A stretch of 64,000 nt of DNA from Kineosporiaceae bacterium SCSIO 59966 (GTDB lineage: Bacteria > Actinomycetota > Actinomycetes > Actinomycetales > SCSIO-59966), in the NCBI GenBank assembly GCA_020881835.1, contig CP052876.1, forward strand, positions 1,488,001 through 1,552,000, in the 5' to 3' direction. The notes under the pieces were generated by a model. The model saw only the letters and a list, made by a program, of their open reading frames with translations, had not been told where the DNA came from and did no database searches. The position numbers were made by a program, and so were the translations under genes. The first letter of the stretch is position 1, and each line of letters opens with the position of its first letter. Shown here in pieces: positions 38,795 to 55,828 of this stretch.

Positions 38795-38821
38795 GATGAG
38801 CTCCTGTCCGGGTTGCGGCGG

Positions 38822-40051: not shown

Positions 40052-40528
40052 TCAGTAGTCCACGCGCCGCGAGTTGTCCCGCCAGGCGGCGAACGGCGCC
40101 ACCGCGGTTCCGAGCCGCAGCTCCTGCACCAGGGTGGGCCAGGAGAGAGGTGCGGCGGTGAGCAGGTCGTAGAAGGCCCGGTCGTCGAAACCGCAGTCGG
40201 CCGCGTCATGGCGGTTGGCGGCGAAAACGACCCGGTCCAGCCGCGCCCACAGCGCCGAGGTGGCGCACATCGGGCACGGCTCGCACGAGGCGTACATCGT
40301 GCAGCCGGCCAGCGAGAAGACGCCGAGCTCCCGGCAGGCCGCACGGATCGCGCTGACCTCGGCGTGGGCGGTCGGGTCCAGATCACGGGTCACCCGGTTG
40401 ACGCCGGTCGCGAGGACCTCGTCGCCACGGACGACGACCGCCCCGAACGGCCCGCCGCCGGCGGCCACGTTCGCCGTGGCGAGGTCGACCGCCTGCTGCA
40501 ACCACCTCTCGTCGGCAACGGTCGTCAC
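40052..40528 (-). CDS. Guanine deaminase-type nucleoside/nucleobase deaminase
   Basis: This 158-residue cytidine-deaminase-fold protein has the zinc motif HAEVSAIRAA and CEPCPMCATSALWA. Similarity in layout to small bacterial guanine deaminases, and its place directly after the xanthine dehydrogenase genes, favour guanine to xanthine conversion. tRNA adenosine deaminase (TadA) is the main alternative but the context argues against it. GTG overlaps the xanthine dehydrogenase stop. Confidence 0.85.
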   Translation of the reverse strand: MTTVADERWLQQAVDLATANVAAGGGPFGAVVVRGDEVLATGVNRVTRDLDPTAHAEVSAIRAACRELGVFSLAGCTMYASCEPCPMCATSALWARLDRVVFAANRHDAADCGFDDRAFYDLLTAAPLSWPTLVQELRLGTAVAPFAAWRDNSRRVDY

Positions 40529-43167
40529 GGGTTCCCTCCTCGGGTCAGGCGCCAGATCCGGTCCCTGCTCATCGGCAGCTCGTGGGGGCGGATGCCGACG
40601 GCGTCACGCACGGCGTTGGCGATCGCGGGTGCGACCGGGTTGTACGGGGCCTCGCTCATCGACTTGGCGCCGTGCGGGCCCAAGGCGTCGACGGTGTCCG
40701 CGACCAGGACCCGCGTCGTGGGCACGTCGCCCAGCCTCGGGGTGCGGTACGTGCGGAAGCCGCGCGTGCGCACCTCGCCGTCCACGACGACGACCTCCTC
40801 CTGCAACGCGGATCCGACCGCTTGCGCCACTCCGCCATCCACCTGGCCGCGCAGCTGCTCGGGGTTGAGCACCACCCCCGCGTCCACGGCCTGCACCGAG
40901 TCCAGGACTCGTACCTCGCCGCTGGCTGGGTGCACTGCGACCCGGACTGCGTGCACGTTGAAGGCCACCGACCGCCGGTCGCCGTCGCAGGTACCGCTGG
41001 CCACGATCGGGCCCTCCGTCGCGGGCAGGGCGGCCAAACCTCCAAGGGCCTCCAGCCGCCGGCGCACCTCGGCCGCGGCACGTTGCACGGCCAGCCCCGC
41101 GACAACCGACCCGGTGGAACCGAAGGCGCCGGAGTCGTAGCCGGAGGTGGCGGTGTCAGAGGCGATCAGCCGGACCCGGTCGGGGTCGAGCCCGAGTGTC
41201 TCGGCGACCAGCTGGGTGTGCACGGTCGCCGTCCCGTTGCCGAACTCCGCCGTGCCCACCGTGACGGTGGCGGTGCCGTCGGGGAAGAGGGCGATCTGCG
41301 CGTGCGAGTGGTGCCCGCGCGGCGGGATGGTGGCGATCATGGCCAGCGCCATGCCCTCACCGACGGCCCAACCCTCGGCCGGAGGGCAGGCCGGACGGGT
41401 ACCGGCCAGCGCCGACTCGGCGAGGTCTAGGCACTGGTCGAGGCCGTAGCTGCCGAACTCCAGGTCGGGTGAGGGTGCTCCGTTGACGACGAGCGGGTCG
41501 CCGGGCACCACGACGTTGCGGCGGCGCAGCTCGAACGGCGTGATGCCGACCTCGCGAGCCAGCTCGTCCAACGCTGACTCGACACCGAAGACCACCTGAC
41601 CGAGCCCGTAGCCGCGGAAGGCACCGCTCGGCGGGTTGTTCGTGTACACGGCCTCGGCGTCGACCCGCTTGGCGGGGCAGCGGTACACGGCCACGGACTC
41701 GTGCACACCGTGGAGCATGACCCCAGGGCCGTGGTTGCCGTACGCCCCGGTGTCGCTGAGCACCTCGACCCGCATCGCGGTGAGCCGGCCCGCCGTGTCG
41801 GCCCCCAGCTCCACGGTCACCCGCATCGGGTGGCGGAGCGGGATCGCGGTGAACTGCTCCTCGCGGGTCATCTCCAGCTGCACCGGACGCCGGTCGCCCC
41901 GCTCGGCGAGCCGCAGTGCCGCCAGCGCCACGACGTCCTCGACCAGGAGCTCCTGCTTGCCGCCGAAGCCGCCCCCCACCCGGGCCGCGACCACCCGCAC
42001 CTGGTGCGGTGCACGGTCGAGGACCCGGGCCAGCTCGTCGCGGACCAGGAACGGCACCTGGGTGCTGGTGCGGACGACGAGCGTGCCGTCGTCGTCGACC
42101 CAGGCCCGGGCACCGTGCGCCTCCAGGGCGGCGTGGGCCACCCGGGCGGTGGTCCAGGTGCCTCGCACGGTGTGCGCGGCGGCGCTGAGCCCGGCGTCGA
42201 CGTCGCCGACCTCGCCGTGCGTAGCGGCCACGAGGTTGCGCAGGGGGTCGGCGATCCGGGAAGCCGCCGGATCCTTGTCGGCGTGCAGCAGCGGCGCGCC
42301 CGGGGAGCGCGCCGCCTCGGGATCGAACACTGCCGGGAGCGACGCGTAGACCACCTCGACCAGCGCTGCGGCGTGCTGGGCGACAGCGACCGACTCGGCC
42401 ACGACAGCCGCGACACGTTGGCCCCGGAACCGCACGACGTCATCCAGCAGCCTGGTGTCGTCCGGGTCGTCCAGCCGGTTCTCGTGCCGGGCGGTCGAGT
42501 ACAGGACGTCCGGGGAGTCGTCCGGCGTCAGCACCAGCACGACGCCGGGCACCGACTCCGCGGCGGCGCAGTCGACTGAGACCACGCGGGCGTGCGCGTG
42601 CGGCGAACGGACCAGGGCCACGTGCAGCACCCCGGCATCCGGCAGGTCGAGGGTGAAGGCCTCGCGACCGCTGACCACCCGCGGAGCGGCCGGCGGGGCG
42701 ACCGAGCAGCCGACGCCACCTCTGGTCGTCACATTCACCGTGCCCGCGAGCGCGTCGCGGATCGAGCGGTAGCCGGTGCACCGGCACAGGTTGCCCTTGA
42801 AGACCCGTTCCGGCTCGGCCACCTGCACGGTGCCGTCGTCGTCGGCGAGCGCGGTCGCGGTCACCACCCAGCCCGGTGTGCAGAACCCGCACTGGAACGC
42901 GCCGGCCTCGACGAATCGTCGTTGTACCGGCGAGAGCTCCTCGGGCGTCCCGAGCCCCGCCGCCGTCGTCACCTCCCGGCCGGCGGCGCGGGCAGCCGGC
43001 GTGATGCAGGAGGGCACCGGCACGCCGTCCAGCAGGACGGTGCACGCGCCGCAGTCGCCGGAGTCGCAGCCCTTCTTCACCGCTGTCCCGCCACAGGCGC
43101 GGATCCAGGTGCGCAGGCACTGCCCAGGTGCCGGCGCGCCGGGCACCTCCTCCCCATCAAGGATCAT
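40525..43167 (-). CDS. Xanthine dehydrogenase, fused [2Fe-2S] and molybdopterin-binding subunit
   Basis: The 880-residue protein joins two subunits that are often separate. Residues 1-150 bind two [2Fe-2S] clusters: C34, C39, C42, C54 (CDSGDCGAC) and C93, C96, C128, C130 (CGFC, CRC). The rest is the molybdenum domain with GGGFGGKQE, SGAFRGYG and the C-terminal GPHGAKSMSEAPYNP that supplies the catalytic Glu. It should oxidise hypoxanthine and xanthine to urate, with electrons passing to the adjacent FAD subunit. ATG at 43167 is chosen because the upstream frame extends into the FAD gene. No XdhC-type maturation gene is in view. Confidence 0.9.
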   Translation of the reverse strand: MILDGEEVPGAPAPGQCLRTWIRACGGTAVKKGCDSGDCGACTVLLDGVPVPSCITPAARAAGREVTTAAGLGTPEELSPVQRRFVEAGAFQCGFCTPGWVVTATALADDDGTVQVAEPERVFKGNLCRCTGYRSIRDALAGTVNVTTRGGVGCSVAPPAAPRVVSGREAFTLDLPDAGVLHVALVRSPHAHARVVSVDCAAAESVPGVVLVLTPDDSPDVLYSTARHENRLDDPDDTRLLDDVVRFRGQRVAAVVAESVAVAQHAAALVEVVYASLPAVFDPEAARSPGAPLLHADKDPAASRIADPLRNLVAATHGEVGDVDAGLSAAAHTVRGTWTTARVAHAALEAHGARAWVDDDGTLVVRTSTQVPFLVRDELARVLDRAPHQVRVVAARVGGGFGGKQELLVEDVVALAALRLAERGDRRPVQLEMTREEQFTAIPLRHPMRVTVELGADTAGRLTAMRVEVLSDTGAYGNHGPGVMLHGVHESVAVYRCPAKRVDAEAVYTNNPPSGAFRGYGLGQVVFGVESALDELAREVGITPFELRRRNVVVPGDPLVVNGAPSPDLEFGSYGLDQCLDLAESALAGTRPACPPAEGWAVGEGMALAMIATIPPRGHHSHAQIALFPDGTATVTVGTAEFGNGTATVHTQLVAETLGLDPDRVRLIASDTATSGYDSGAFGSTGSVVAGLAVQRAAAEVRRRLEALGGLAALPATEGPIVASGTCDGDRRSVAFNVHAVRVAVHPASGEVRVLDSVQAVDAGVVLNPEQLRGQVDGGVAQAVGSALQEEVVVVDGEVRTRGFRTYRTPRLGDVPTTRVLVADTVDALGPHGAKSMSEAPYNPVAPAIANAVRDAVGIRPHELPMSRDRIWRLTRGGNP

Positions 43168-43973
43168 GCGGCTCCCTCCGCCAGCTCGGCGTGCACCTCG
43201 GCCGCCAGACGCACGGTCTGTGCGGCCCGCCAGTCCGTGGCGCCGTGCAGATCGGCGAACCACCCCACCGAGCCGCAGGCGTCGGCCACCGCACGACGTA
43301 CCGCCGTCCCGGTCGCTGTGGTCGCGACCGCGAGCACGACTGGCCGCGGCACCGAAGCGGTCACGGTGAGCACGACGGACTCGGCGCTGCGTCGTCCGAT
43401 GACCAGTGCAGCGGAACGGCCGTAGGTGGTGAGCGCGGCCCGGCGCACGGCGCTGGCCTGACGCAGAGCGGGCCCGGGCAGCTCCACGCAGCGGAGGACC
43501 TCACCCGGTCGCAGGTCCACGGCCCCGGCACCCCGCACGAAGTCCGTCACCGCTGCGTGCCGCTCCCCGCCGTCGGGCGTCAGCAGGACGACCTCGCCGG
43601 CCAGCGCGGCGGTCAAAGCGATCATGGCGCCGGCCGGTAGACCAAGGCACAGGTTGCCGCCTACGGTCGCGGCCGACTGCACCGTGAACGGCATCAGCAG
43701 TGCGTCGGCGCACTGCTCCGCCAGCGCCGAGGAAGGCCACGGTGCCGAGCGAACCTGCTCCACCGTGCACGTGGCGGCCAGCCGCAGCCCGCCGCCCGGT
43801 AACGCCTCCCAGGGCTCCCAGCGCATCGTCGTGAGGTCGACCAGGCCGGTGACCTCAGGTTGCGGCTCGGAGAACAGCCACGTCCCGCCGGCGAGCAGCC
43901 GCTCTCCGGGACGCAGGCGCAGGTCCCCCCGGTCGTGCGCGTCGCGGTAGGTCTCGACGCGGGCCAGGTCCAT
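43164..43973 (-). CDS. Xanthine dehydrogenase FAD-binding subunit
   Basis: The 269-residue protein has the CO dehydrogenase flavoprotein fold: LLAGGTWLFSEPQPEVTGLVDL near the N-terminus and the FAD motif TVQSAATVGGNLCLGLPAG. It passes electrons from the FeS-molybdenum subunit encoded next. ATG lies just inside the regulator stop; the longer frame upstream overlaps the regulator and is a shadow. Cotranscription with the large subunit is shown by the 4-nt overlap. Confidence 0.9.
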   Translation of the reverse strand: MDLARVETYRDAHDRGDLRLRPGERLLAGGTWLFSEPQPEVTGLVDLTTMRWEPWEALPGGGLRLAATCTVEQVRSAPWPSSALAEQCADALLMPFTVQSAATVGGNLCLGLPAGAMIALTAALAGEVVLLTPDGGERHAAVTDFVRGAGAVDLRPGEVLRCVELPGPALRQASAVRRAALTTYGRSAALVIGRRSAESVVLTVTASVPRPVVLAVATTATGTAVRRAVADACGSVGWFADLHGATDWRAAQTVRLAAEVHAELAEGAA

Positions 43974-44788
43974 CACTCCACCTCGCCGAGGTGGGAGTAG
44001 ATGTCGCTGATCGCCGAGATCCGGTCGCGACCGGCGCGGCCCGCACGGGCCAGAACGCCGTCGGCGAGCACGGCCACCACGCTCATCGCGGCGGCGTACG
44101 AGTCGTAGGCGAGCCTCCCCTGCACCGGACAGGGCAGCCACACCTGCGCGACGCCTGAGTGGCCAGCGGCGGTGGGGTCGGCCAGGAGGACCACGTCGGC
44201 GCCAGTTGCCGCGGCGGCGGCGAGAAAACTGGCGAACCCGGCGGGCCGGCGGCGGAAGCCAACGGCCAGCACGGCGTCCCCGCGGCCCAGGTCGGCGAGC
44301 TCCTCGCCGAGCACCTGACCCGGCACGGGCGCCAGGTGAACCCGGGGCCGGGCCTGCACCAGCTGCTCGCGCAGGTGCAGGGCCACCGGGTGACTGTTGC
44401 GCCAGCCGACGACCAGTACCTGACGGGCGTCGGCGAGCACCGCCACGGCCTCGGCCACGGCCGGCTCCAGCACCGCGGTGGCGACGGCGGTGGCCTCGTC
44501 GGAGACGTGTGTGGCCAGGTCTGGGGGCCCACTCACCCGTCGCGGCTCGCCGGCGGTGCGCAGCGACCGGAGGTGGTCGCGGACCTCGTCGAAGTCCGCG
44601 AAGCCGAGCGAGCGGAACAGCCGGCTCATCGTCGCCTTGGAGACCCCGGCCAGGGCGGCCAGCTCGGCGGCCCGGTAGGTGCCCAGGTCGTCCAGGTGCT
44701 CGAGAAGGGTCTCGGCGGCCCGCCGCTCCTGGGAGGTCAGCGTCGGGTGGCAGCGGGCGATCCGCTCGTCGATCCGGAGGCCGTTCAC
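43973..44788 (-). CDS. MurR/RpiR family transcriptional regulator
   Basis: This 271-residue regulator has an N-terminal helix-turn-helix (TYRAAELAALAGVSKATMSRLFRSLGF) and a C-terminal SIS domain (QVLVVGWRNSHPVALHLREQL, AVGFRRRPAG). SIS domains in this family usually bind phosphosugars, but RpiR regulators in purine clusters may sense an intermediate such as allantoin or urate. It is the only regulator in the island, so it is the first candidate to bind the shared palindromes. GTG overlaps the allantoate amidohydrolase stop. Confidence 0.9.
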   Translation of the reverse strand: MNGLRIDERIARCHPTLTSQERRAAETLLEHLDDLGTYRAAELAALAGVSKATMSRLFRSLGFADFDEVRDHLRSLRTAGEPRRVSGPPDLATHVSDEATAVATAVLEPAVAEAVAVLADARQVLVVGWRNSHPVALHLREQLVQARPRVHLAPVPGQVLGEELADLGRGDAVLAVGFRRRPAGFASFLAAAAATGADVVLLADPTAAGHSGVAQVWLPCPVQGRLAYDSYAAAMSVVAVLADGVLARAGRAGRDRISAISDIYSHLGEVE

Positions 44789-46026
44789 GTCCGCTCCTCG
44801 ACCGTGGCAGCCACCCGGAGCACCGCCGCCTCGAGCGCGTCCAACCCCCGTGCGACGTCGATCTCACGGACGTCCTCGTCGGGGGCGTGGCTGATCCCGT
44901 CTGCGCAGCGGAGGAAGAGCATGCCGACGTCCGTGATCGCCGCCATCGCCATCGCGTCGTGCCCGGCCCGACTCCACAGTGCCATCGGCTGGTCCCTACC
45001 GTGGTCGTCGGTCGCGCCGATTCCCTCCACAACGGCCTGCTGCAGCCAGGGGGCGCAGGCCACCGCGGGGGCGCGATGGTTCTCCGCGACCTCCAACCGG
45101 AGCCCCCGGCGCGCGCAGATGCTCTCGATCTCGGTGCCCAGCACGTCCCACATGCCGTCGCGCTCGGCATCCGTCGCGGCGCGCAGGTCGAGGGTGAGGT
45201 CGGCCCGACCCGGGACGACGTTGACCGCGCCCGGGTGCACCTCCAGCCGGCCGACGGTGGCGATGCAGCCGTACGCCTGCGCCAGCCGCTCGACGGCGAG
45301 CACCGCCTCGCCCGCACCGGCCAGCGCGTCGCGGCGACGCTCGTACGGTGTGCTGCCGGCGTGCCGCGCCTCACCCAGCACCACGAGCCGGAACCGTCGC
45401 GCGCCCGCGATCGTGGTGACGTAGCCGAGCGACCGGTCGGCCGCCTCGAGACAGGTGCCCTGCTCGATGTGCGCCTCCAGGTAGCCGACGAGCTCGTCGG
45501 GCGTCCGGGTGGCCTCGCCGACCCGCGACGGGTCGAGCCCGAAGTCGACGAAGGCCCGGCGCAACGACACGCCCTCGGCGTCGCGCAGCTCCCACCACGC
45601 CGGGTCCCAGGTACCGGCCACGGCGCGGCTGCCGAGCAGTGCGGTGCCGAAACGAGTGCCCTCCTCGTCCCCGAACCCCACGACCTCCAGGGCAACCGGG
45701 AGGTCGGCGCCGCGGAGCCGTTCGGCCACGGCCACCGCCATGACGACACCCAGCATCCCGTCGTAGCTGCCGGCGTCGGGCACGGTGTCGAGGTGTGACC
45801 CGAGCACCAGGGCTGGCAGCCCCGGTGCCCGTCCTTCGCGGCGGCCCCACTGGTTGCCCGCCGGGTCCTGCCACGGGGTCAGCCCCGCCGCTGCCATCCA
45901 CGACGCGGTGAGCCGGTTGGCGGCTGCGTGCTGCGGGGTGAGGTGGAAGCGCTCGAGGCGGTGGGGCCGGGCGGAGATCCGGTCCAGCTCTGCACAGCGA
46001 GCCAGGACGGTGGCGGCAGTGGTCAT
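44785..46026 (-). CDS. Allantoate amidohydrolase (M20 family)
   Basis: The 413-residue binuclear metallohydrolase has VLGSHLDTVPDAGSYDGMLG, GFGDEEGTRFG, EAHIEQGTCLEA and SRAGHDAMAMA, the pattern of allantoate amidohydrolase and beta-ureidopropionase/carbamoylases. In this cluster the natural reaction is allantoate to ureidoglycine plus ammonia and CO2. It lies between the aminotransferase and regulator genes with overlaps at both ends. N-carbamoyl amino acid hydrolase is a family alternative, less likely here. Confidence 0.9.
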   Translation of the reverse strand: MTTAATVLARCAELDRISARPHRLERFHLTPQHAAANRLTASWMAAAGLTPWQDPAGNQWGRREGRAPGLPALVLGSHLDTVPDAGSYDGMLGVVMAVAVAERLRGADLPVALEVVGFGDEEGTRFGTALLGSRAVAGTWDPAWWELRDAEGVSLRRAFVDFGLDPSRVGEATRTPDELVGYLEAHIEQGTCLEAADRSLGYVTTIAGARRFRLVVLGEARHAGSTPYERRRDALAGAGEAVLAVERLAQAYGCIATVGRLEVHPGAVNVVPGRADLTLDLRAATDAERDGMWDVLGTEIESICARRGLRLEVAENHRAPAVACAPWLQQAVVEGIGATDDHGRDQPMALWSRAGHDAMAMAAITDVGMLFLRCADGISHAPDEDVREIDVARGLDALEAAVLRVAATVEERT

Positions 46027-47243
46027 GCCTCGTACACCTCGAGGGCGGCGCCGACGCCACCACCGGCTGGCACGGGCACGCCGCAGCCGCGCAGTACCTG
46101 CTCGAGCGCGGCCAGCGTGGTGAGGACGGCGTCCCGCCGGGCGTTGTAGCCCATGGTCCCGATCCGCCAGACCCGCCCGTGCAGGGGGCCGAACGAGGTG
46201 CCGATCTCGATGCCGAAGTCCTCCAGCAGCGCTGTGCGGACGGTGTCCGCAGCGACACCGTCGGGGACACGGACGGCGACGACGTTGCTCATCTTGTGGG
46301 CCGGGTCGCCGAACGGCTCCAGGCCAAGTCCGAGGATGCCGATGAGCATCGCTCGCCCGTGGAGCTCGTGGCGGGCGATCGTGGCGTCGAGACCCTCCTC
46401 GACCAGCAGCCGGGCGCACTCCCGCGCGGCGTAGAGCATCGAGCTGGCCTCGGTGTGGTGGTTGAGCCGGCGCGGGCCCCAGTACGCCATGACCTGGGCA
46501 AGGTCGAGGTAGTTGCTGGCGATGCGGGTGCCGTGGTCGGTGTCACCGTGGTCGCGGATGCCGGCCTCCACGTGCGTGCGGGCCTCGATCAGCCCCGCTG
46601 CGGCGGTGGACAGGGTGATCGGCGCACTGCCCGGCGGGCCGCCGAGGCACTTCTGCAGACCGGCGCTGGCGACGTCCACGCCCCAGGCGTCGGTCTCGAA
46701 GGCGTTGCCGCCGAGCGAGGCGGTGGCGTCGCAGTAGAGCAGGACGCCGTGCCGGCGGCAGATCTCCCCGATGTCGGCGAGCGGCTGGCACATCGTGGTG
46801 GAGGTGTCGCCGTGGACGACGGCGACGAGCTTCGGACGGACCCTCAGCACCGCCTCCTCCACCGACTCTGGCGGCACCACCTCGCCCCAGGGCACCTCGA
46901 CGGTGTGTACCGCCGCACCGCAGCGCTCGGCGATCTCCCGCAGCAGTGCGCCGAACCGCCCGAAGACCGGCACGAGCACTCGGTCCCCCGGTTCCAGCAG
47001 CGAGACGAGTGCTGCCTCGACGCCGGCGCGGGACGTGCCGTCGACGAGGAATGTCTGCTCGTTGTCGGTACGGAACACCTGGCGGTAGAGCGCCATCGCC
47101 TCGTCCATGGTCGCGGTCATGAACGGATCGAACTGTCCGACCAGCTGGGCCGACATCGCGCGCAGGACCCTGGGGTCGACGGTGACCGGTCCGGGACCCA
47201 TGAGCAGCCGTGGGGGGACGTCCAGACCACCGGTGGCGACCAT
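46023..47243 (-). CDS. pucG: (S)-ureidoglycine:glyoxylate aminotransferase (PucG-like)
   Basis: This PLP enzyme of the alanine-glyoxylate aminotransferase family has 406 residues; the PLP Lys lies in ASAGLQKCLGGPPGSAP. The N-terminal LLMGPGPVTVDPRVLRAMS and VDGTSRAGVEAALVSLLEPGDRV are typical of the PucG group. The expected reaction is ureidoglycine plus glyoxylate to oxalurate plus glycine, which explains the downstream amidase genes and the absence of ureidoglycolate lyase. ATG overlaps the allantoinase stop. Confidence 0.88.
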   Translation of the reverse strand: MVATGGLDVPPRLLMGPGPVTVDPRVLRAMSAQLVGQFDPFMTATMDEAMALYRQVFRTDNEQTFLVDGTSRAGVEAALVSLLEPGDRVLVPVFGRFGALLREIAERCGAAVHTVEVPWGEVVPPESVEEAVLRVRPKLVAVVHGDTSTTMCQPLADIGEICRRHGVLLYCDATASLGGNAFETDAWGVDVASAGLQKCLGGPPGSAPITLSTAAAGLIEARTHVEAGIRDHGDTDHGTRIASNYLDLAQVMAYWGPRRLNHHTEASSMLYAARECARLLVEEGLDATIARHELHGRAMLIGILGLGLEPFGDPAHKMSNVVAVRVPDGVAADTVRTALLEDFGIEIGTSFGPLHGRVWRIGTMGYNARRDAVLTTLAALEQVLRGCGVPVPAGGGVGAALEVYEA

Positions 47244-48583
47244 CAGGCGCTCCTCCTCAGCTGCTGGCCCCACCCGTGGTCGGGCACAACGGGGTCGATC
47301 ACGGAACCGCGCACGAGGGTGCGCGTGACCCTGCCGGCAAAGGTGAGCCCGTCGTAGGCCGAGATGGGGTTTCGGTGCGCCAGCCGGTCGGCGGCGACGA
47401 CTGTCTCCTGCGCGGTGTCGTAGACCACGAGGTCGGCATCGGAGCCCACCTCGATCCGGCCCTTGGAGCGAAGGCCGGCGAGGTCGGCGGTGTTCCGGGA
47501 CATCCACCGGCTGACCGTGGTCACGTCGATTCCGCGTCGAGCAGCCTCGGCGGCGACGGCGGTGAACCCGACCTGCAGCCCCGAGACGCCGCCCCAGGCC
47601 TGCTGGAGGTCGCCGCCGCCCCGGCTCTTCTCCTCGACCGTCGTGGGGGAGTGGTCGCTGACGACGCAGTCGATGACGCCCTCGACCAGCGCTGCCCACA
47701 GCTCGTTGCGGTTGCCGGCGTCGCGGATCGGCGGACAGCACTTGAACTCCGCCGCGGCGTCCGGGATCTGCTCGGCGCTGAGCACGAGGTAGTGCGGGCA
47801 GGTCTCGACGGTGACGGCCAGGCCCTCGTCGCGGGCGCCACGGAGCAGGGGGAGCGCCCGGGCGCTGGAAAGGTGCAGCACGTGCACCCGGGCGCCGGTC
47901 TCCCGGACGCCGTCGAGCACCTGCCGGATCGCCGCGGTCTCGGCCTCGTCCGGCCGGCTGAGCAGGAAGTCGGCATACGCCCGGCTCGCACGGGCGGGCG
48001 CGGCGTCCAGGACGGCGGGGTCCTCGGCGTGCACCACGACCAGCCCACCGAACCCCGCGACGGTGCGTAGCACGCGGCGGAAGCCGGCGGGGTCCAACGG
48101 TGGGAACTCGTCGACACCGCTGGGCGAGAGGAAGCACTTGAGGCCGACCACGCCGGCGTCCCAGAGCGGTTCGAGGTCGTGCTCGTTGCCCGGCACCGCG
48201 CCACCCCAGAACGCCACGTCGACCGCGAGCCGGTCCCGCGCTGCCTCCTGCTTCAGCCGGAGGTGCTCCACCGTGGTCGTCGGCGGGACGGAGTTCAGTG
48301 GCATGTCGACCAGGGTCGTGACGCCGCCGAGAGCGGCAGCCAGCGTGGCGGTGGCGAACCCCTCCCAGTGGGTCCGGCCCGGCTCGTTGACGTGGACGTG
48401 GGTGTCCACTGCGCCGGGCAGGAGGTAGGCGGTGTCCGGGACGTCGGGGACAAGGTTGGCGTCAAAGGGGTCGATCGCGGCGATCCGACCACCGGCGATG
48501 CGCACCGTGGCCGGCCGGACCGTGTCGCCGACCAGCACGCGCCGCGCGCGCAGCGTCGAGGTGGCCGCCAGGGCGGCGCTCAC
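47243..48583 (-). CDS. allB: Allantoinase
   Basis: This cyclic amidohydrolase of 446 residues opens the allantoin ring to allantoate. Metal motifs include GAVDTHVHVNEPGRTHWEGF, the lysine in GLKCFLSPSGV, and CSDHSPTTVEEK-type C-terminal region (VVSDHSPTT). Conserved ETCPHYLVLSAE is shared with allantoinases and dihydropyrimidinases. The flanking uricase and pucG genes settle the substrate. GTG overlaps the uricase stop. Confidence 0.93.
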   Translation of the reverse strand: MSAALAATSTLRARRVLVGDTVRPATVRIAGGRIAAIDPFDANLVPDVPDTAYLLPGAVDTHVHVNEPGRTHWEGFATATLAAALGGVTTLVDMPLNSVPPTTTVEHLRLKQEAARDRLAVDVAFWGGAVPGNEHDLEPLWDAGVVGLKCFLSPSGVDEFPPLDPAGFRRVLRTVAGFGGLVVVHAEDPAVLDAAPARASRAYADFLLSRPDEAETAAIRQVLDGVRETGARVHVLHLSSARALPLLRGARDEGLAVTVETCPHYLVLSAEQIPDAAAEFKCCPPIRDAGNRNELWAALVEGVIDCVVSDHSPTTVEEKSRGGGDLQQAWGGVSGLQVGFTAVAAEAARRGIDVTTVSRWMSRNTADLAGLRSKGRIEVGSDADLVVYDTAQETVVAADRLAHRNPISAYDGLTFAGRVTRTLVRGSVIDPVVPDHGWGQQLRRSA

Positions 48584-49476
48584 GCGAACGCCGGAACGGC
48601 GGTCCAGGCCCGCGGCTCCGCAGGGACGCCGGCGCGCTGGAGAGTGGCCTGGATCAGTCCGTAGGGCCGGTCGGCCGCGACGAACACCTCACCGCCGTTG
48701 GTCAGTCCGAAGGGGGCGAGGTCGACCTCGACATGGTGCTTGTTCGGGCAGCTGATCCGGATCTCCGCGACCTCCGGGACGGCGTCCATCGCGGCGGCCC
48801 CCATGGCGTGGACGGTCTGCTGCAGCGCCAGGCTGTGGGTGGCGGCGAAGGCCCCGACCAGTGCGCCGCGGACGGCGGTGTGAGCAGCGTCCCAGTCCGG
48901 TGGGTTCTCCACGTACCGCCACCAGGCGGTGACGCTGGTGGCGAGGATCCGGTCGCTCGTCTCGGGCAGCGTGGTGAACCGGTCGCGCGGGAAGCCGGAG
49001 AACTCGCTGCCGGTGCTCTTGAGGAGGGTCAGGCCGGTGAGCCCACCGAGCACGAACGTCTCGTCGCCGTCGGTCTGCACCATCGCGGTCCGTACCTCGC
49101 CGCCGTTGCGGGCGAAGGAGTGCCCTGCCCCCGGAGTGCCGGCACCGACGCGGTCCCATGTGTGCTGCCCGGCGGCCATCTGCGTACCAGCCACCCACGG
49201 CTGGGCGCGCCAGTGAGCGGCCAGCACGAGCAGGAACGCCTCGGGCGAGGTCACGCCGTGCTCCTTGGCGAGCGCGTAGACGGTGTTCTTCTGCGTGTCG
49301 GTGGCGTGCACGTGCGCGTTGTCGCCGTCGGTGTACGCGGCGTCGAAGTCGCCACGCAGCTGAGTGGTGACGGTGAGGTCGGCGATGTCGTGCTCCGGCG
49401 CTCCCCGCTCGAGGCGCACCAGGCGGACCTCCGCCTTGCCGTACTGGTGCGGGCCGAGCACGTACGAGCTGCTCAT
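48580..49476 (-). CDS. uox: Urate oxidase (uricase)
   Basis: Cofactor-free uricase converts urate to 5-hydroxyisourate. The 298-residue tunnel-fold protein has LGPHQYGKAEVRLVRL, the catalytic-region YTDGDNAHVHATDTQKNTVY (Thr and Asp of the active site), LTLLKSTGSEFSGF and the C-terminal SCPNKHHVEVDL. Length is standard. ATG directly follows the uraH stop with one shared base; the order uraD-uraH-uox matches pathway order reversed. Confidence 0.95.
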   Translation of the reverse strand: MSSSYVLGPHQYGKAEVRLVRLERGAPEHDIADLTVTTQLRGDFDAAYTDGDNAHVHATDTQKNTVYALAKEHGVTSPEAFLLVLAAHWRAQPWVAGTQMAAGQHTWDRVGAGTPGAGHSFARNGGEVRTAMVQTDGDETFVLGGLTGLTLLKSTGSEFSGFPRDRFTTLPETSDRILATSVTAWWRYVENPPDWDAAHTAVRGALVGAFAATHSLALQQTVHAMGAAAMDAVPEVAEIRISCPNKHHVEVDLAPFGLTNGGEVFVAADRPYGLIQATLQRAGVPAEPRAWTAVPAFA

Positions 49477-49790
49477 CAGGACCCCCGGTAGGTCGTGTAG
49501 GAGAACGGGCTGAGGAGCAGCGCGACGTGGTGGTGCTCGCCGTCGGTCATCGCGAAGGTCACCGTCACGGCGGGGTAGAAGGTGGTGCGTCCCTGGCCGG
49601 CGAACCAGGTGCCGGTCTCGAACCGCACGGTGTGCACGCCCGCCGGCAGGTCGGCGCCCACCCGGGCGCGCCCGTCGTCGTCCGTGCGGCCCGGCCGGGT
49701 CCTGCCGTCGGCCAGGCTGAGGAGCACCTCCATCCCGGCGGCCGGGCGGCCGAGCGCGGCGTCGAGGACGTGCGTGCTGAAGGAGCTCAC
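49476..49790 (-). CDS. uraH: 5-hydroxyisourate hydrolase (transthyretin-related)
   Basis: This 104-residue transthyretin-like enzyme hydrolyses 5-hydroxyisourate to OHCU. It starts SSFSTHVLDAALGRPAAGMEV (His of the active site in STHVLD), has the central RFETGTWFAG and ends in the signature tetrapeptide Y-R-G-S. It is adjacent to uricase and OHCU decarboxylase, and the GTG start overlaps the uraD stop. Confidence 0.95.
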   Translation of the reverse strand: MSSFSTHVLDAALGRPAAGMEVLLSLADGRTRPGRTDDDGRARVGADLPAGVHTVRFETGTWFAGQGRTTFYPAVTVTFAMTDGEHHHVALLLSPFSYTTYRGS

Positions 49791-50284
49791 GGGTGCACCA
49801 GCCCCTCCAAGCGGAGCAGGGCGATCTCCGCCAGCTGCGACCGGGTCACCGAGAGCTCTGTCGCGGGGTCGTGGGCCAGGCGCTGTTCGAGCAGGTCCAG
49901 CAGCTCCGGTCCGGTGCGCCCTGCGGCGCGGACGAGGTAGATCCGACCGAATCGCTCCTCGTACCGCCGGTTGCCCTCGGCCAGCCGCTGCCGCAGCGGC
50001 TCGTCTGCCGGGTCCACGCCGGCCTGCTCCCGACTGGCGATCGCTGCGGTCGGCCCGCTGCCGGCTGGTCGCTCGCCGATGCGAGGGTGGTCGGCGAGGG
50101 CCGCGTCGACCTCGGCCCCCGTCCAGCAGGTGGTCTGCTCCCGAACGGCGGCGAGGAGGTTGTCCACCGTGCCGTAGGGACGCCTCGCTGCGACAGCGAC
50201 CGCGAAAGACGGGATGTCGGCGCAGCGCAGCAGCAGGGAGGCAGCCTCTCCGGGCGCGAGGGCGTCGAACTCGGCGATGCGCAC
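49787..50284 (-). CDS. uraD: OHCU decarboxylase
   Basis: The enzyme converts 2-oxo-4-hydroxy-4-carboxy-5-ureidoimidazoline to S-allantoin. The 165-residue helical protein has DHPRIGERP, the catalytic-His region, and EQAGVDPADEPLRQRLAEGNRRYEERFG, the family signature. GTG lies 6 nt after TACGGT, and a perfect 14-bp palindrome adjoins that -10 box, so a new regulated leaderless transcript probably begins here within the larger array. Confidence 0.94.
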   Translation of the reverse strand: MRIAEFDALAPGEAASLLLRCADIPSFAVAVAARRPYGTVDNLLAAVREQTTCWTGAEVDAALADHPRIGERPAGSGPTAAIASREQAGVDPADEPLRQRLAEGNRRYEERFGRIYLVRAAGRTGPELLDLLEQRLAHDPATELSVTRSQLAEIALLRLEGLVHP

Positions 50285-50329: not shown

Positions 50330-51772
50330 TCAGCGTTCTGTGTACTCGACGTACTCGACCACGAGGTCGAGGAGTTCGCGGTCGCGCCCGGCTCCGGCCA
50401 CCAGGCAGACGCCGGCCGGGAGCCCGTCAGCGGTGCGGACGGGGATGCTGACGGCGGGCAGTCCGGCGACCGCCGCCAGGCAGGTCAGCCGCATCGTGGC
50501 GTTGCGGTCCTGGAGGGTGGCGCCGACGGAGAGCGACGGCGCCACCGACGGCGCGCTCGGCAGGGCCAGCACACGGTCGGCGACGAGCTCCCGCAGCTGG
50601 GTTCGGGCAGCGTCCACCACCGCGCGCGCCCGCTCGGCTGCGGCGTCGTCGACGCGAGAGGCGGCCGCGAAACGCGACCGCACGTCCTCGCCGAGTGCGT
50701 CGAGGTTCTCGGACAGCCACGGGCCGTGGGTGCGCCAGGCCTGGAACGCCTGCCAGGTCTGGAACGCGGTGCGCCACTCGTCGAGCGAGTCGAGGGGTAC
50801 GTCGAGGGTTCTGGCGCCGGCCGCGGCCGTCCAGGCGCGGACGGCCGCGGCGACGTCGGAGTGTGCGCTCGCGACCAGCCGGTCGACGACAACCAGCTCG
50901 GTACCACCGCCGGGGGATCCCGGTGGCAGCAGCACGTCGCCGACCGTACGCAGGAGCTCCGGGGACCGGGTCAGCCAGCCCACGGCGTCGAACGCCGGGG
51001 CCAGCGGGAGCAGGCCGCCCCGGTCCACGGCGCCGTGAGTCGTCCGGATGCCGAAGAGTCCCTGGTAGGCGGCCGGCACGCGGATCGATCCGCCGGTGTC
51101 GGTACCCAACCCGATGGTGGCGTGACCGAGGGCGACCGCACTGGCGCTGCCGCTTGAGGAGCCCCCGGGGATGCGGTACGGGGCCTGGGGGTTCGGCGGA
51201 GCACCGTAGTGGGGGTTCGTGCCGGCCAGGGAGTAGGCAAGCTCGTCGGTGCGGGCGATCCCGCGGACGGCCGCACCGGCTGCCAGCAGCGCGGCGACCG
51301 TGGCCGCGTGGCGGGGTTCCGCGCGGGCCTCCGCCAGCCACTTCGGGTTGCCTGCACCGACGGGCTGGCCGGCCACCGCGTACAGGTCCTTGACCGCGAC
51401 GGTCTGACGGGTCAGCGGCCCCGCGCCCGTCGGGCGGACGAGTGGGTCGCCGACGACGCGCCAGATCCTGGTGTCCAGGGGGGACGGCTCCGCGGAGACG
51501 TGCGCGGCGGTGACCCGCCAGCCTCCGTGCTCCGGCACCTCGGAATGCCTGCGCCACAGCTGGGTCTGCAGGTCACGTCCACCGCCGGCCAGCTCGGTCA
51601 CCGCCACGACGAGGGCTGAGTCGGCGTCGATGACCTGCACGTGCGTCTCTGCGAGCGTGCGCCGGACTGCCCGGCCGTGGCGCGCCCGCAAGACGACGTC
51701 GTCGGCCGCGGCCGCGGCGTCGTAGGCGGCGACCGCCTCGAGAAGCCCGGGCGGGATGTTGTCGCCGGTCAC
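50330..51772 (-). CDS. AtzH/HpxZ-like domain fused to amidase-signature hydrolase, putative oxalurate/oxamate amidohydrolase
   Basis: This 480-residue protein has two parts. Residues about 10-105 resemble the AtzH/HpxZ (DUF3225) fold (LAETHVQVIDADSALVVAVTEL and GGWRVTAAHVS), though shorter than a full copy, with an apparent internal deletion. Residues about 110-480 are an amidase-signature domain with Lys128 (AVKDLYAV), Ser205 in PGGSSSGSA and nucleophile Ser229 in TDTGGSIRVPA. HpxZ and AtzE-like amidases occur together in oxalurate catabolism of other bacteria; here they are one polypeptide downstream of PucG chemistry. Oxalurate hydrolysis is therefore a good guess, unproven. GTG overlaps the formamidase stop. 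Confidence 0.8.
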   Translation of the reverse strand: MTGDNIPPGLLEAVAAYDAAAAADDVVLRARHGRAVRRTLAETHVQVIDADSALVVAVTELAGGGRDLQTQLWRRHSEVPEHGGWRVTAAHVSAEPSPLDTRIWRVVGDPLVRPTGAGPLTRQTVAVKDLYAVAGQPVGAGNPKWLAEARAEPRHAATVAALLAAGAAVRGIARTDELAYSLAGTNPHYGAPPNPQAPYRIPGGSSSGSASAVALGHATIGLGTDTGGSIRVPAAYQGLFGIRTTHGAVDRGGLLPLAPAFDAVGWLTRSPELLRTVGDVLLPPGSPGGGTELVVVDRLVASAHSDVAAAVRAWTAAAGARTLDVPLDSLDEWRTAFQTWQAFQAWRTHGPWLSENLDALGEDVRSRFAAASRVDDAAAERARAVVDAARTQLRELVADRVLALPSAPSVAPSLSVGATLQDRNATMRLTCLAAVAGLPAVSIPVRTADGLPAGVCLVAGAGRDRELLDLVVEYVEYTER

Positions 51773-52839
51773 GCGAAGTCGGCCTTTCGGATCGTGGCGT
51801 GGACCCCCTTGACGACGTCGACCACCTGGCTGATCCGAAAGTCGGTCGCTGCAGAGAGGTACGCGTAGGCGAGCCGCGGGTCCATCCCGAACCGTGCCTG
51901 CAGGAGCGCGATCGCGGCGCGCACGCAGTTCTGGACCGCGGTGTCGAGGTCCTCGTCGAGCCCGGTGGGCACGAGGAAGTCGCTGGTCTCGGCGAGCGGG
52001 CCGGCCAGGTCCCCGAAGCGCCGCACCGCATCCTCCCGAGCGAGGACGTCAAGCCGCAGCGTCGCGCGCAGGCTGCCTTCCAGGGCTGTCAGGCACACCT
52101 CCCCGTCGCCTTGGGCGAAGTGCGGGTCCCCGACGTAGACCAGGGCACCGTCGACCTGGACCGGCAGGTACAGCGTGCTACCGGCTGTCAGCAGGGCGAT
52201 GTCGAGGTTGCCGCCGTGCCGGCCAGGCGGTACCGAGTGCGGCCGCTCAGCTCCGGGCACCGCGAGGCCCATGATCCCGAGGAACGGGCGCAGCGGGAAC
52301 CGCGCCGTGCGCTCACTGTCCGGGGTCAACGGTACCGAGGCGTGCGTTCCGTCGTCGTCCACGCCGGCGAAGGCGCTGAAGACGGGCATGTCGCCGCCGG
52401 GGTACTCGCCGGGCAGGGCACCGCGGCCGTGCCGGTTGGAGATGATGCCGTAGGGCACCCGCGGCGTGGCGTCCAGCAGGGTGACGGCCAGCAGGTCGCC
52501 GACCCGGGCCCCTTCGACGGCGATCGGCCGGCTGACGACGTGCGGCCCGTCGATCCCGAACCGGTGCGGGTCGTCGCTCTTCGCCAGGGCGACGGCGTCC
52601 TGAAGCACCTCGGCGACCCCGTGCCGGCCGAAGTAGGCCAACGGGTCGCGACCCTGGTCCTCCAGGATCCCCTCGTGGCTCACGGTGTCGACGGTGATCT
52701 CGGCGCCGGCGGCAACGGTGATGACCGGGGGGTCCGCCGCGCACGGCAGCCGGCCCCAGAGCACGGCGTCCGGGCTGGCAGGAAGGTACGTACCGGCGTG
52801 GATCGGGCCGCTCCCCGGCTGGAGCACTGGTGTGAGCAC
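51769..52839 (-). CDS. Acetamidase/formamidase family protein
   Basis: The 356-residue protein belongs to the FmdA/AmdA family: GDLLAVTLLDATPRVPYGI, PGRHGGNLDIALL and LYLPVQVDGALVYVGDPHFAQGDGEVCLTALE are the core blocks, ending in DVVKGVHATIRKADF. It could hydrolyse formamide, or a small amide such as oxamate released from oxalurate. GTG at 52839 is favoured because -10 TATCTT lies 7 nt upstream; a GTG four codons further in is an alternative and the longer upstream frame has no support. It is the first gene of the minus-strand purine array. Confidence 0.85.
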   Translation of the reverse strand: MLTPVLQPGSGPIHAGTYLPASPDAVLWGRLPCAADPPVITVAAGAEITVDTVSHEGILEDQGRDPLAYFGRHGVAEVLQDAVALAKSDDPHRFGIDGPHVVSRPIAVEGARVGDLLAVTLLDATPRVPYGIISNRHGRGALPGEYPGGDMPVFSAFAGVDDDGTHASVPLTPDSERTARFPLRPFLGIMGLAVPGAERPHSVPPGRHGGNLDIALLTAGSTLYLPVQVDGALVYVGDPHFAQGDGEVCLTALEGSLRATLRLDVLAREDAVRRFGDLAGPLAETSDFLVPTGLDEDLDTAVQNCVRAAIALLQARFGMDPRLAYAYLSAATDFRISQVVDVVKGVHATIRKADFA

Positions 52840-53032: not shown

Positions 53033-54067
53033 ATGCCCACTGCGCCGCCGCCTCTGTCCGTTCCGCTGTCCATTCCGCGCGTGTCCCTCCTGCGCTCCTT
53101 CCTGCGTCGACCCGTCGGCGTCCTTGCGTCACTCGCCCTGGTGACGGCGATGGCCGGCTGCACCTCGACGGGGGCCAGCACGACTGAGAGCGGGGAAGCT
53201 GAGGTCGTCCAGGTCGGGACCCTGCGAGGTCAACCGCACTTCTATGCGCCGTACCTCTACGCTGAGCACGCCGAGGGCGATGTCGAGTTCGAGGTCGTCG
53301 CGCTCGAGACCGCGCCCGCACTCAACGACGCGCTCGCCAGCGGGTCCGTGGACTTCGCTGTCGGCAGCATCACGGCGACGATCGCCGGTGCCGCGGCCGG
53401 CCGCGACGTGCGTATCGTCGCCGCGGCTGCGGACGGCGGGAGCGGCATCGTCGGTACCCCGGAGATCCGGTCCGTGCGCGACCTGGTCGGCAAGCGGGTG
53501 GGCTACCTCGAGTCCAGCTCCCAGCTGGTCGCGCTGCGGCTCATCCTCGAGCGCGAGGGCGTGAACGTCGAGGACCTGGAACTGGTATCCCTCAGCGCCC
53601 CCGAGTTCTTCAACGCCTTCAACACCGGCCAGATCGATGCCTTCGCCGCACCCGAGATCGGCGTGTCCCTCGCGCTCAGTGCCGGCGGCCAGGCCATCGC
53701 CGACCCCTACTCGACCGAGATCGGCCGGCTCAACATTGCGCTGCTCACCACAAAGGCGCTGATCGAGGAGAACCCGGAGCTCGTACAGGCCGTGGTGGAC
53801 ACCCATGCCGCGACCACCGCCTACATGGCAGAGAACCAGGACGAGTGGCTCCCGGAGATGATCGAGGAGTACGGCGGCGACCAGGAGGTTCTCGAGAGCG
53901 CGCTGGACAACTTCTGGCTCCGCGCGGACCTCTCGCCGACCTACGAGGAGCAGATCGGAAACCTCGCCGTCCAGATGGCCCGCCTCGGAATGATCCAGGA
54001 GACTCCGGCGCTCGAGGACATCGTCGACTCGTCCTTCGCGTCACGCGACGAGCCTGCAGGGTCGTGA
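53033..54067 (+). CDS. ABC substrate-binding lipoprotein (NitT/TauT, NMT1/SsuA-like)
   Basis: This 344-residue lipoprotein has a long N-terminus (LLRSFLRRPVGVLASLALV) ending in a lipobox TAMAGC, then a NMT1/SsuA-like body (VQVGTLRGQPHFYAPYLYAEHA, GSVDFAVGSITATIAGAAAGRDV). ATG at 53033 was used; an internal GTG before SLLRSFLRRP would give a more usual signal length. It begins an importer operon divergent from the purine array, so it probably takes up a compound that the array degrades. It is not closely similar in sequence to the other binding protein at 39 kb. Confidence 0.85.
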   Translation: MPTAPPPLSVPLSIPRVSLLRSFLRRPVGVLASLALVTAMAGCTSTGASTTESGEAEVVQVGTLRGQPHFYAPYLYAEHAEGDVEFEVVALETAPALNDALASGSVDFAVGSITATIAGAAAGRDVRIVAAAADGGSGIVGTPEIRSVRDLVGKRVGYLESSSQLVALRLILEREGVNVEDLELVSLSAPEFFNAFNTGQIDAFAAPEIGVSLALSAGGQAIADPYSTEIGRLNIALLTTKALIEENPELVQAVVDTHAATTAYMAENQDEWLPEMIEEYGGDQEVLESALDNFWLRADLSPTYEEQIGNLAVQMARLGMIQETPALEDIVDSSFASRDEPAGS

Positions 54068-54894
54068 CCTCTTCGACGACCGGGCGGTTGGCCGCAGCGG
54101 GCCGGGCGGCACTCGGGCTCGGTGCTCTCGTCGCCATCGTCGTCCTGTGGCACCTCGGCGTCCGCGGGCAGTGGGTCCTCGTCTTCGACATCAAGATGGC
54201 ATTCCTGCCGGAGCCGGCCCAGGTCGCCCGCCTGCTGTGGGACTTCGCGTTCGGAGGGGTCTTCGACGATGCCTTCAGCGGCACCCTGTGGCAGCACCTG
54301 TGGGCCAGCACCGGCCGGGTCCTCGCCGGCTTCGGCCTGGCCGCGGCGCTGGCGATCCCGCTCGGCGTGCTGATGGGGCGCTTCCGTCTTGTGCACGCGG
54401 CGTTCGACCCTGCGGTGAACCTGTTTCGCCCCATCCCGGCGACTGCATGGGTGCCGCTCGTCCTGCTGATCATCGGGTTCGGCACCCAGGCGACGATCTT
54501 CCTTATCACGCTCTCGGCCTTCTTCCCGATCCTGCTCAACACCCTGTCCGCCGTGCGGGAGGTGCCGCCCAGACTGGTCGAGGCGGCGCAGATGCTGGGG
54601 ACCTCGGGCGCCAACGTGCTGCTCAAAGTGATCGTTCCAGCGTCGACCCCCGGCATCGTCAGCGGGTTGCGAATCGGGTTGGGCCTCGCCTGGGTCATCC
54701 TCGTGCTCGGCGAGAGCAACGGCATCGAGTGGGGCCTAGGCAGCATGATCACCCTGGCCCGCGAACAGGTCCGTACCGACCGCGTCATCGTCGGGATGAT
54801 CGTCATCGGCTTCGCCGGTTTCCTGTCCGACCGCATCCTGCTGCACGGCCTGCGCGGGATCTTCCGCCGACGTCCCCTGGTGAGGTCCACATGA
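54064..54894 (+). CDS. ABC transporter permease (NitT/TauT family)
   Basis: The 276-residue permease has six hydrophobic segments; the EAA-loop region is VPPRLVEAAQMLGTSGANVLLKVIVPASTPGIVSGLRIGLGLAW. GTG overlaps the SBP stop (GTGA). Only one permease is present in this system, so a homodimer is expected, in contrast to the two-permease importer at 36-38 kb. Confidence 0.9.
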   Translation: MTSSTTGRLAAAGRAALGLGALVAIVVLWHLGVRGQWVLVFDIKMAFLPEPAQVARLLWDFAFGGVFDDAFSGTLWQHLWASTGRVLAGFGLAAALAIPLGVLMGRFRLVHAAFDPAVNLFRPIPATAWVPLVLLIIGFGTQATIFLITLSAFFPILLNTLSAVREVPPRLVEAAQMLGTSGANVLLKVIVPASTPGIVSGLRIGLGLAWVILVLGESNGIEWGLGSMITLAREQVRTDRVIVGMIVIGFAGFLSDRILLHGLRGIFRRRPLVRST

Positions 54895-55691
54895 GCATGT
54901 CAGGCCTGTCCCGTCTGACCCGGCACACCCAGGCGGGGCGGGTGCTCGTCGACGACCTCGGCAAGCGCTACGGCAAGGAGCCGGCGATCGACGCTGTCGC
55001 AGGGATCTCCCTCGACATCGCGCCGGGGGAGTTCGTCGCCGTCGTCGGCGCCAGCGGTTGCGGGAAGAGCACCCTGCTGCGGGTCCTCGCCGGCTTCGAG
55101 GCGCCCACCCGGGGGAGGGTCGAGGTCGGCGGCCGCCCAGTCACGCGCCCCGGTCCGGACCGGGGAGTGGTGTTTCAGGACTACGGGCTCTTCCCGTGGC
55201 TCACCGTGGCGGAGAACGTCCGGTTCGGGCTGCGGCAGCGGGGGACGCCACGCCGCCGTGCGCGGGACGTCGCCGACGCCTTCATCGAGGTCGTCGGTCT
55301 GACCCGCTTCGCCGACCGTTTCCCCGGAGAGCTCTCGGGCGGGATGCAGCAGCGCGTGGCTATCGCGCGCGTGCTCGCGAACGATCCCGCTGTGTTGCTG
55401 ATGGACGAGCCGTTCGGTGCCCTCGACGCTCTCACCAGGGCGCAGATGCAGCACGAGCTGCGCCGCCTCTACCGCGAGGCGGGGACGACGGTCGTCTTCG
55501 TGACCCACTCCATCGAGGAGGCGGTGTACCTGGCTGACCGGGTCGTGGTGATGGCCGGCGGCGCCGCCAAAGGAGTGCCCGGGCACATCACCGAGGTGTT
55601 CCCGGTCCTGCTGGGCGATGACCGGGACGTGAACGCCGTCAACTTCAACGCTCTCGAGCGTGCGATCTCCGATCGGGTCCACGCCGGCTGA
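54891..55691 (+). CDS. ABC transporter ATP-binding protein (NitT/TauT family)
   Basis: The 266-residue ATPase has Walker [11 protein letters not shown]-loop [19 protein letters not shown], signature [16 protein letters not shown] and Walker [16 protein letters not shown] follows GTGAGGTCCAC and overlaps the permease end. It completes the second importer. The gene ends about 50 nt before the 3' end of tRNA-Leu on the other strand. Confidence 0.92.
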
Positions 55692-55743
55692 CGGTCCGCG
55701 CACGCTGGGCCGGGCCTGGAGGCGGGAAGGTCCCACGTCGACG

Positions 55744-55828
55744 TGTCCGAGGGGGGACTTGAACCCCCACCCCCTATACGGGGACTAGCACCTCAAGCTA
55801 GCGCGTCTGCCTATTCCGCCACCCGGAC
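55744..55828 (-). tRNA. tRNA-Leu (anticodon GAG)
   Basis: An 85-nt class II tRNA with no encoded CCA. The acceptor stem GTCCGGG pairs with CTCGGAC (one G-U), the anticodon stem-loop is CTAGC-TTGAGGT-GCTAG with anticodon GAG, there is a variable arm, and the T-arm has GGTTCAAGT. It decodes CTC/CTT leucine codons. Confidence 0.95.

Follow-up and report, generated by a model that had tools for sequence, protein, structure and literature searches.

The window analysed here, a stretch of 64,000 nucleotides from Kineosporiaceae bacterium SCSIO 59966 (contig CP052876.1, positions 1,488,001 to 1,552,000 of the forward strand), carries on its reverse strand a purine degradation operon, the second gene of which encodes an amidase fused to an AtzH/HpxZ-like domain. 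The gene order is FmdA-like, fusion, UraD, hydroxyisourate (HIU) hydrolase, uricase, AllB, PucG, AllC, RpiR regulator and xanthine dehydrogenase (Xdh). Its assignment to the HPX oxalurate route, as a fused and non-orthologous variant, is well supported as a genomic prediction. The fusion gene, its parts and the remaining genes of the operon are located as follows.

50330..51772 (-): AtzH-like/amidase fusion gene, 480 amino acids, GTG start
51482..51772 (-): eroded AtzH/HpxZ-like NTF2 domain, about residues 1-97
51689..51699, approximate (-): junction of an in-frame deletion of about 29 codons, near codons 25-28
50348..51463 (-): amidase-signature domain, about residues 104-475, from Pfam and alignment
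51389-51391, 51158-51160 and 51086-51088 (-): codons of the amidase triad, Lys128, Ser205 and Ser229 respectively
51769..52839 (-): FmdA/AmdA-like gene, 356 amino acids, proposed oxamate amidohydrolase
49787..50284 (-): uraD, 2-oxo-4-hydroxy-4-carboxy-5-ureidoimidazoline (OHCU) decarboxylase, profile matches
49476..49790 (-): HIU hydrolase (PucM-like), 104 amino acids, named by eye from sequence and position, with like genes at the same place in relatives
48580..49476 (-): uricase, profile matches
47243..48583 (-): allantoinase AllB, profile match
46023..47243, upper end approximate (-): PucG-type ureidoglycine-glyoxylate aminotransferase (class V)
44785..46035, upper end approximate (-): AllC-type allantoate amidohydrolase
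43973..44788 (-): RpiR regulator, profile match
43260..43976 (-): xanthine dehydrogenase FAD subunit, named by eye
40525..43170, upper end approximate (-): xanthine dehydrogenase, [2Fe-2S]-binding and molybdopterin domains in one open reading frame (ORF)

The amidase and its fused domain

A preliminary description of this stretch had recognised an AtzH/HpxZ-amidase fusion with an intact Lys128-Ser205-Ser229 triad, an internally shortened AtzH part and an adjacent formamidase/acetamidase-like gene, and these four observations were borne out. The fusion protein scored 164.8 bits against Pfam Amidase (PF01425; cut-off 27), and Lys128, Ser205 and Ser229 were unchanged in all 31 aligned family members. 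The top NCBIfam model was the PRK08310 amidase (NF006169), at 371.3 bits narrowly under its cut-off of 391, a value exceeded by relatives from Azospirillum (536.6) and Cohnella (486.4). AtzE profiles scored far under their cut-offs (TIGR02715, 157.1 against 425.75; NF006631, 168.6 against 461), and three AtzE/HpxY rows formed a group of their own, apart from the fusion amidase, with a Shimodaira-Hasegawa-like approximate likelihood ratio (SH-aLRT) support of 98 in a quick tree without bootstrap. Orthology with HpxY/AtzE was ruled out by these scores and the separate clade; judged from profiles and tree, the amidase is of the PRK08310 type. The fusion gene overlaps the upstream FmdA-like gene by 4 bp and lies 45 bp from the next gene, leaving no space beside it for a small GatC-like partner of the HpxX/AtzG kind, the rest of the genome not having been searched for one.

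The Pfam AtzH-like domain was found in all 13 relatives chosen, and a profile built from their domains matched the solved structure of AtzH (6bjt; E 9e-22), showing that the domain is no chance match. One relative (L005) scored 73.9 with the Pfam model, above its cut-off of 27, and its AlphaFold model contained the whole set of NTF2 helices and strands (three helices, six strands) at a mean per-residue confidence (pLDDT) of 91.9; another (L021) reached 65.9 with NF033625, under the cut-off of 135. The pocket residues reported for AtzH (PMC6219798) were used as the reference for residue counts. Tyr22, Arg46, Arg63, Arg66, Arg73 and Gln108 were present in 32 of 32 intact fusions and Gln106 in 28 of them; these 32 were chosen by a Tyr-Glu motif, and are thus members with the domain by choice, the count for Tyr22 being partly a product of selection. 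Three proteins were left out of the counts, namely L007 (motif missed, with a domain containing Tyr and Arg readable), L008 (no domain) and L020 (a copy of L019).

The domain of the window copy is eroded. It scored 20.6 bits with Pfam AtzH-like (PF11533) over residues 29-94, under the 27-bit cut-off, and a phmmer search with the first 118 residues gave a best E of 0.6. Equivalents of Tyr22, Arg63, Arg73 and both glutamines (Gln106 and Gln108) are retained; the Glu after Tyr22 is changed to Asp, a His occupies the position of Arg66, and a stretch of about 29 residues holding Arg46 is missing, so that the pair Tyr22 and Arg46 is incomplete. Among 33 fusion proteins compared, this deletion was seen in the window copy only, the 32 others having the missing stretch. 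The AlphaFold model consists of a single long helix and four strands, an incomplete NTF2 fold, with residues 25-35 at a pLDDT below 50. Whole-chain fold searches listed amidase structures as their matches and were uninformative on the NTF2 part. A frameshift hidden in the shortened domain was considered and rejected, the other two frames of codons 13-60, read by eye, containing no AtzH-like sequence.

Because about 29 residues including Arg46 are missing, the decarboxylase function of the window copy has probably been lost, and on the evidence of the alignment this copy is a member of the family with a decayed HpxZ part. It is very unlikely that the deletion is an assembly error and the protein a normal fusion. 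The uniqueness of the deletion among the 33 proteins speaks for an error; against it stand the in-frame gap, the assembly of the genome as a single 3.1 Mb contig, drift in the rest of the domain (Asp for the Glu after Tyr22, His for Arg66), and the complete absence of the domain from relatives L050, L156 and L163. The preliminary description suggested that the AtzH part may be structural only. In the relatives, with the pocket kept in 32 of 32, the domain looks catalytic rather than merely structural; the window copy and some others have lost it. Structure prediction, proposed there as a check, gave a complete NTF2 domain for L005 and an incomplete model for the window protein.

The protein encoded by the gene upstream of the fusion scored 121.9 bits with FmdA_AmdA (PF03069), and 78.7 bits with the formamidase FmdA model NF045496, the cut-off of which is 500. 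It belongs to the same superfamily as FmdA but falls short of assignment to the formamidase equivalog.

Association with PucG in the operon and across genomes

PucG-type aminotransferases make oxalurate. The window PucG shares 65% identity over 399 amino acids with the aminotransferase encoded in a Klebsiella hpx locus, a protein annotated only as a member of the alanine--glyoxylate aminotransferase family; the ureidoglycine-glyoxylate aminotransferase is also called HpxJ. The window RpiR regulator is 40% identical to Klebsiella HpxU. As the aminotransferase matches the Klebsiella hpx type and the regulator matches HpxU, the operon should deliver oxalurate, and the fusion and the FmdA-like gene should be those left to use it. 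The formation of oxalurate by ureidoglycine aminotransferase is named in PMC5270733.

The fusion type is widespread: 75 of 396 genomes of the order carried such an amidase (E ≤1e-70), and 15 of 396 phylum genomes (E ≤1e-40) held the fusion type or looser kin, unfused amidases among them. The fusion-type counts are by similarity; two rows start after residue 90, and one further row (G523), which begins at residue 23, proved on checking to lack the AtzH domain. The first look scored only four or five candidates per genome. A scan of contigs gave at least 596 relatives, with few fusions among the 80 listed. Rhodococcus and Amycolatopsis are among the hosts of the fusion that bear a name. PucG (E ≤1e-90) was detected in 63 of the genomes of the order, 61 of which also had the fusion type; the two with PucG only were both drafts of at least 700 contigs. 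At genus level the fusion type was present in 14 of 14 genera with PucG against 5 of 95 others. FmdA-like matches (E ≤1e-70) were found in 86 of the 396 genomes, covering 72 of the 75 with the fusion type and 62 of the 63 with PucG. In the phylum sample, all four genomes with PucG of at least 69% identity (the window's own included) had the fusion type; four genomes with PucG matches of 43-45% had no fusion match (E ≤1e-40), and their matches are presumably other aminotransferases.

Forty hand-chosen neighbourhoods were fetched, 36 taken across genera from the order's 74 other matches and four from the phylum sample. PucG was present in 28, and the fusion lay less than 700 bp from it on the same strand in 19. 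A FmdA-like gene was present in 31, and in 29 it was less than 400 bp from the fusion on the same strand. The near-whole window operon was kept in five loci (L129, L130, L131, L156 and L168), of which L168 has no FmdA-like match beside the fusion and L156 has no AtzH part.

A profile match for the AtzH-like domain was obtained in 37 of the 40 neighbourhoods, those without being L150, L156 and L163; L156 and L163, together with L050 from Nesterenkonia, are linked to PucG and lack the domain. All fusions fell into one tree group of 36 rows with a support of 92 (quick method, SH-aLRT only; row Beta_GGT2_L059, a wrong ORF with a branch length of 10, was disregarded), and the domain-less L050 and L053 lie inside it. 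As L050 and the window protein stand in separate sub-branches, erosion of the AtzH domain probably happened at least twice. Given the erosion or loss of the domain in PucG-linked relatives, the decarboxylation step would be helpful without being essential, as would be the case if the N-carboxy intermediate could lose its carboxyl group spontaneously too.

A predicted route from oxalurate and its alternatives

The operon would degrade purines to ureidoglycine, and PucG would convert ureidoglycine and glyoxylate to oxalurate and glycine. The amidase domain, by means of its Lys-Ser-Ser triad, would most likely release ammonia from the terminal ureido group of oxalurate, leaving N-carboxyoxamate. 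In the intact relatives the fused HpxZ domain would then decarboxylate N-carboxyoxamate, yielding oxamate by analogy with the action of AtzH on dicarboxyurea; the HpxZ domain of the window strain is broken, and there the carbamate would probably decarboxylate unaided. The FmdA-like neighbour would most likely take the place of HpxW and hydrolyse oxamate to oxalate and ammonia; HpxW is described in PMC5270733 as releasing oxalate and ammonium from oxamate. Observed here are the genes, domain structure, residue conservation, operon and co-occurrence, while the substrates and products of both the fusion and the FmdA-like protein are all inferred. Taken together, a fused, non-orthologous replacement of HpxWXYZ, made up of the amidase, the HpxZ domain or a spontaneous step, and the FmdA-like protein, appears probable. 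Oxalurate as the likely substrate and oxamate as the likely intermediate, both anticipated in the preliminary description, are supported.

The amidase occurs in several other arrangements. An unfused amidase followed by a gene annotated hpxZ was found on Azospirillum and Roseomonas mucosa plasmids, and L070 and L072 appear by similarity to have the same unfused pair. In Cohnella (L054) and Paenibacillus (L068) AllB, AllC, PucG and the amidase stand in a row, with a GGT-like (gamma-glutamyltranspeptidase-like) match at the far end of the L068 stretch; a separate AtzH-like gene near these two amidases was sought by profile among all ORFs of at least 80 amino acids, and none was found at E ≤1e-4. 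A metagenome-assembled genome (MAG) of Enterobacterales has the order amidase, GGT-like gene, one gene without assignment, PucG and AllC. Its GGT-like protein was closest to 5hft, listed as gamma-glutamyltranspeptidase, which we take to be Klebsiella HpxW, the oxamate enzyme. These independent arrangements and the pairing with an HpxW-like protein suggest that the amidase converts oxalurate to oxamate and that the FmdA-like protein replaces HpxW. The one GGT-family match in the window genome was rejected as HpxW, its closest solved structure being another GGT, with 5hft absent at E ≤1e-40.

The locus resembles Klebsiella HpxWXYZ in its type of aminotransferase (65%) and of RpiR regulator (40%), its HpxZ-type domain and its amidase. 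It differs in that the amidase is of another clade and fused to HpxZ, no HpxX gene is present in the operon and a FmdA-like protein stands at the place of HpxW. With AtzE-AtzG-AtzH of Pseudomonas sp. ADP (PMC6219798) its intact relatives share the AtzH fold and most pocket residues, whereas AtzE falls in a different amidase clade and the Pseudomonas proteins are separate and belong to a cyanuric acid operon. The PRK08310-type amidase and hpxZ of Azospirillum and Roseomonas present the same two domains as neighbouring genes, and the Azospirillum amidase and the window domain share 47% identity over 372 amino acids; the two domains are, however, unfused there, and neither an aminotransferase nor an acetamidase/formamidase is annotated in the two stretches.

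Several points weigh against a role in the oxalurate route. The mechanism is drawn by analogy with AtzE-AtzH, and Phe94 and Arg96 of AtzH were retained in none of the 32 fusions. The fusion type occurred without PucG in 14 of 75 genomes and a FmdA-like match without the fusion type in 14 genomes; PucG was lacking in 12 of the 40 neighbourhoods, a passing FmdA-like match in 9, and the genomes are related, so that species-level statistics overstate their independence. No oxalyl-CoA decarboxylase scored above cut-off in the window genome, this being the one oxalate enzyme sought. The GGT-like protein beside the amidase in L071 was closest to 2nlz rather than 5hft, and an Amycolatopsis fusion is accompanied by isochorismatase- and cupin-like matches. 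Rhodococcus plasmid stretches (L019 and L020) carry the FmdA-like gene and the fusion without PucG, and in Paraburkholderia a PRK08310-like amidase shares one operon with AtzE and hpxZ. Since both kinds of amidase share the latter operon, they need not do the same job.

Details of these other contexts were also recorded. The Rhodococcus plasmids cluster a flavin reductase, a luciferase-like monooxygenase and an amidohydrolase with the FmdA-like and fusion genes (positions ~3500-16900 of L019/L020); the best models for the amidohydrolase were cytosine deaminases, under their cut-offs, and the cluster is possibly an N-heterocycle pathway ending in the FmdA-like/fusion module. A cysteine hydrolase of the isochorismatase type and a small cupin recur around the amidase in L071, L062, L049 and L171, with FAH, GGT-like or creatininase genes in some loci. 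In Paraburkholderia L173 (7248-10378) the operon comprises the PRK08310-like amidase, a short gene that occupies the AtzG position, AtzE and hpxZ, and adjoins a gene annotated rutB.

It is unlikely that the amidase is a broader ureido-acid amidohydrolase, acting on allophanate-like or other carbamoyl acids, for which the link with PucG is one of several uses and the substrate perhaps not oxalurate. This alternative is favoured by the PucG-free Rhodococcus plasmids, with their weakly cytosine-deaminase-like amidohydrolase and luciferase-like monooxygenase, and by the contexts with isochorismatase and cupin, the creatininase family or AtzE. However, the fusion type is present in all 14 PucG genera of the order, the gene lies close to PucG (within 700 bp, same strand) in 19 of 40 neighbourhoods, and the amidase is beside PucG in Cohnella and Paenibacillus too. 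As the fusion/FmdA-like pair occurs on Rhodococcus plasmids without PucG, the range of the entire family probably extends beyond oxalurate, and its wider membership may act on several ureido acids.

That the enzyme cleaves the oxalyl amide of oxalurate and so releases oxalate and urea directly, with FmdA acting on something else, is improbable. Amidases could attack either amide bond, and such a cut would account for the dispensability of the AtzH part. Urea is nonetheless disfavoured as a product because the window genome gave no match to urease alpha and nothing above cut-off for urea carboxylase, so that urea would probably be a dead end; it would also leave the HpxZ domain of intact relatives without a clear role, and the pairing with an HpxW-like protein in one MAG is an argument for oxamate. 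The swapped order, the FmdA-like protein acting on oxalurate and the fusion on oxamate, is improbable too: the two genes co-occur in 72 of 75 fusion-type genomes and context alone sets no order, but in L054 and L068 the amidase stands beside PucG with no FmdA-like match in the fetched stretch, and one MAG pairs it with the HpxW-like protein that we take for an oxamate enzyme.

A more complete form of the predicted replacement of HpxWXYZ is put forward tentatively. The fusion would convert oxalurate to oxamate without a GatC-like partner, a FmdA-family protein would be the oxamate amidohydrolase, and the HpxZ step would be a mere accelerator that is repeatedly being lost (window copy, Nesterenkonia and two more PucG-linked genomes).

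Adjoining genes and implications

Divergent from the operon is an ATP-binding cassette (ABC) transporter locus.

53087..54067 (+): NMT1/SsuA-like substrate-binding protein
~54061-54894 (+): permease, named by eye
~54898-55691 (+): ATPase, named by eye

Genes similar to this transporter (53087-55691) are found near the fusion in L132, L143, L150 and L165, for which reason it may import a purine breakdown product. A tRNA-Leu (gag) gene, 55743-55828(-), adjoins the transporter genes. A second NMT1-type substrate-binding protein (38822-39877) lies at 36343-39877(-) with an ATPase and two permeases named by eye, and near it are an adenosine-deaminase-like ORF, also named by eye, and a 2-oxoglutarate-Fe oxygenase (34180-35229). 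The [2Fe-2S]-binding and molybdopterin domains of the window xanthine dehydrogenase share one ORF (40525-43170, -); they are often separate subunits.

The only paper found on AtzH-like (DUF3225) domains together with an amidase was PMC6219798, in a search that did not cover subscription papers. No such fusion was named in the titles and abstract openings of the papers listed for oxalurate, subscription papers again excepted, which is no proof that it is unpublished.

The fused protein and its FmdA-like neighbour together probably complete the recovery of nitrogen from purines. For bacteria that break down purines through PucG, the prediction assigns genes to the further conversion of oxalurate in a form open to testing, and it supplies a candidate oxamate-hydrolysing role for a family of the FmdA type. 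The natural cases with and without the HpxZ domain would provide a means to test what the decarboxylase is for.

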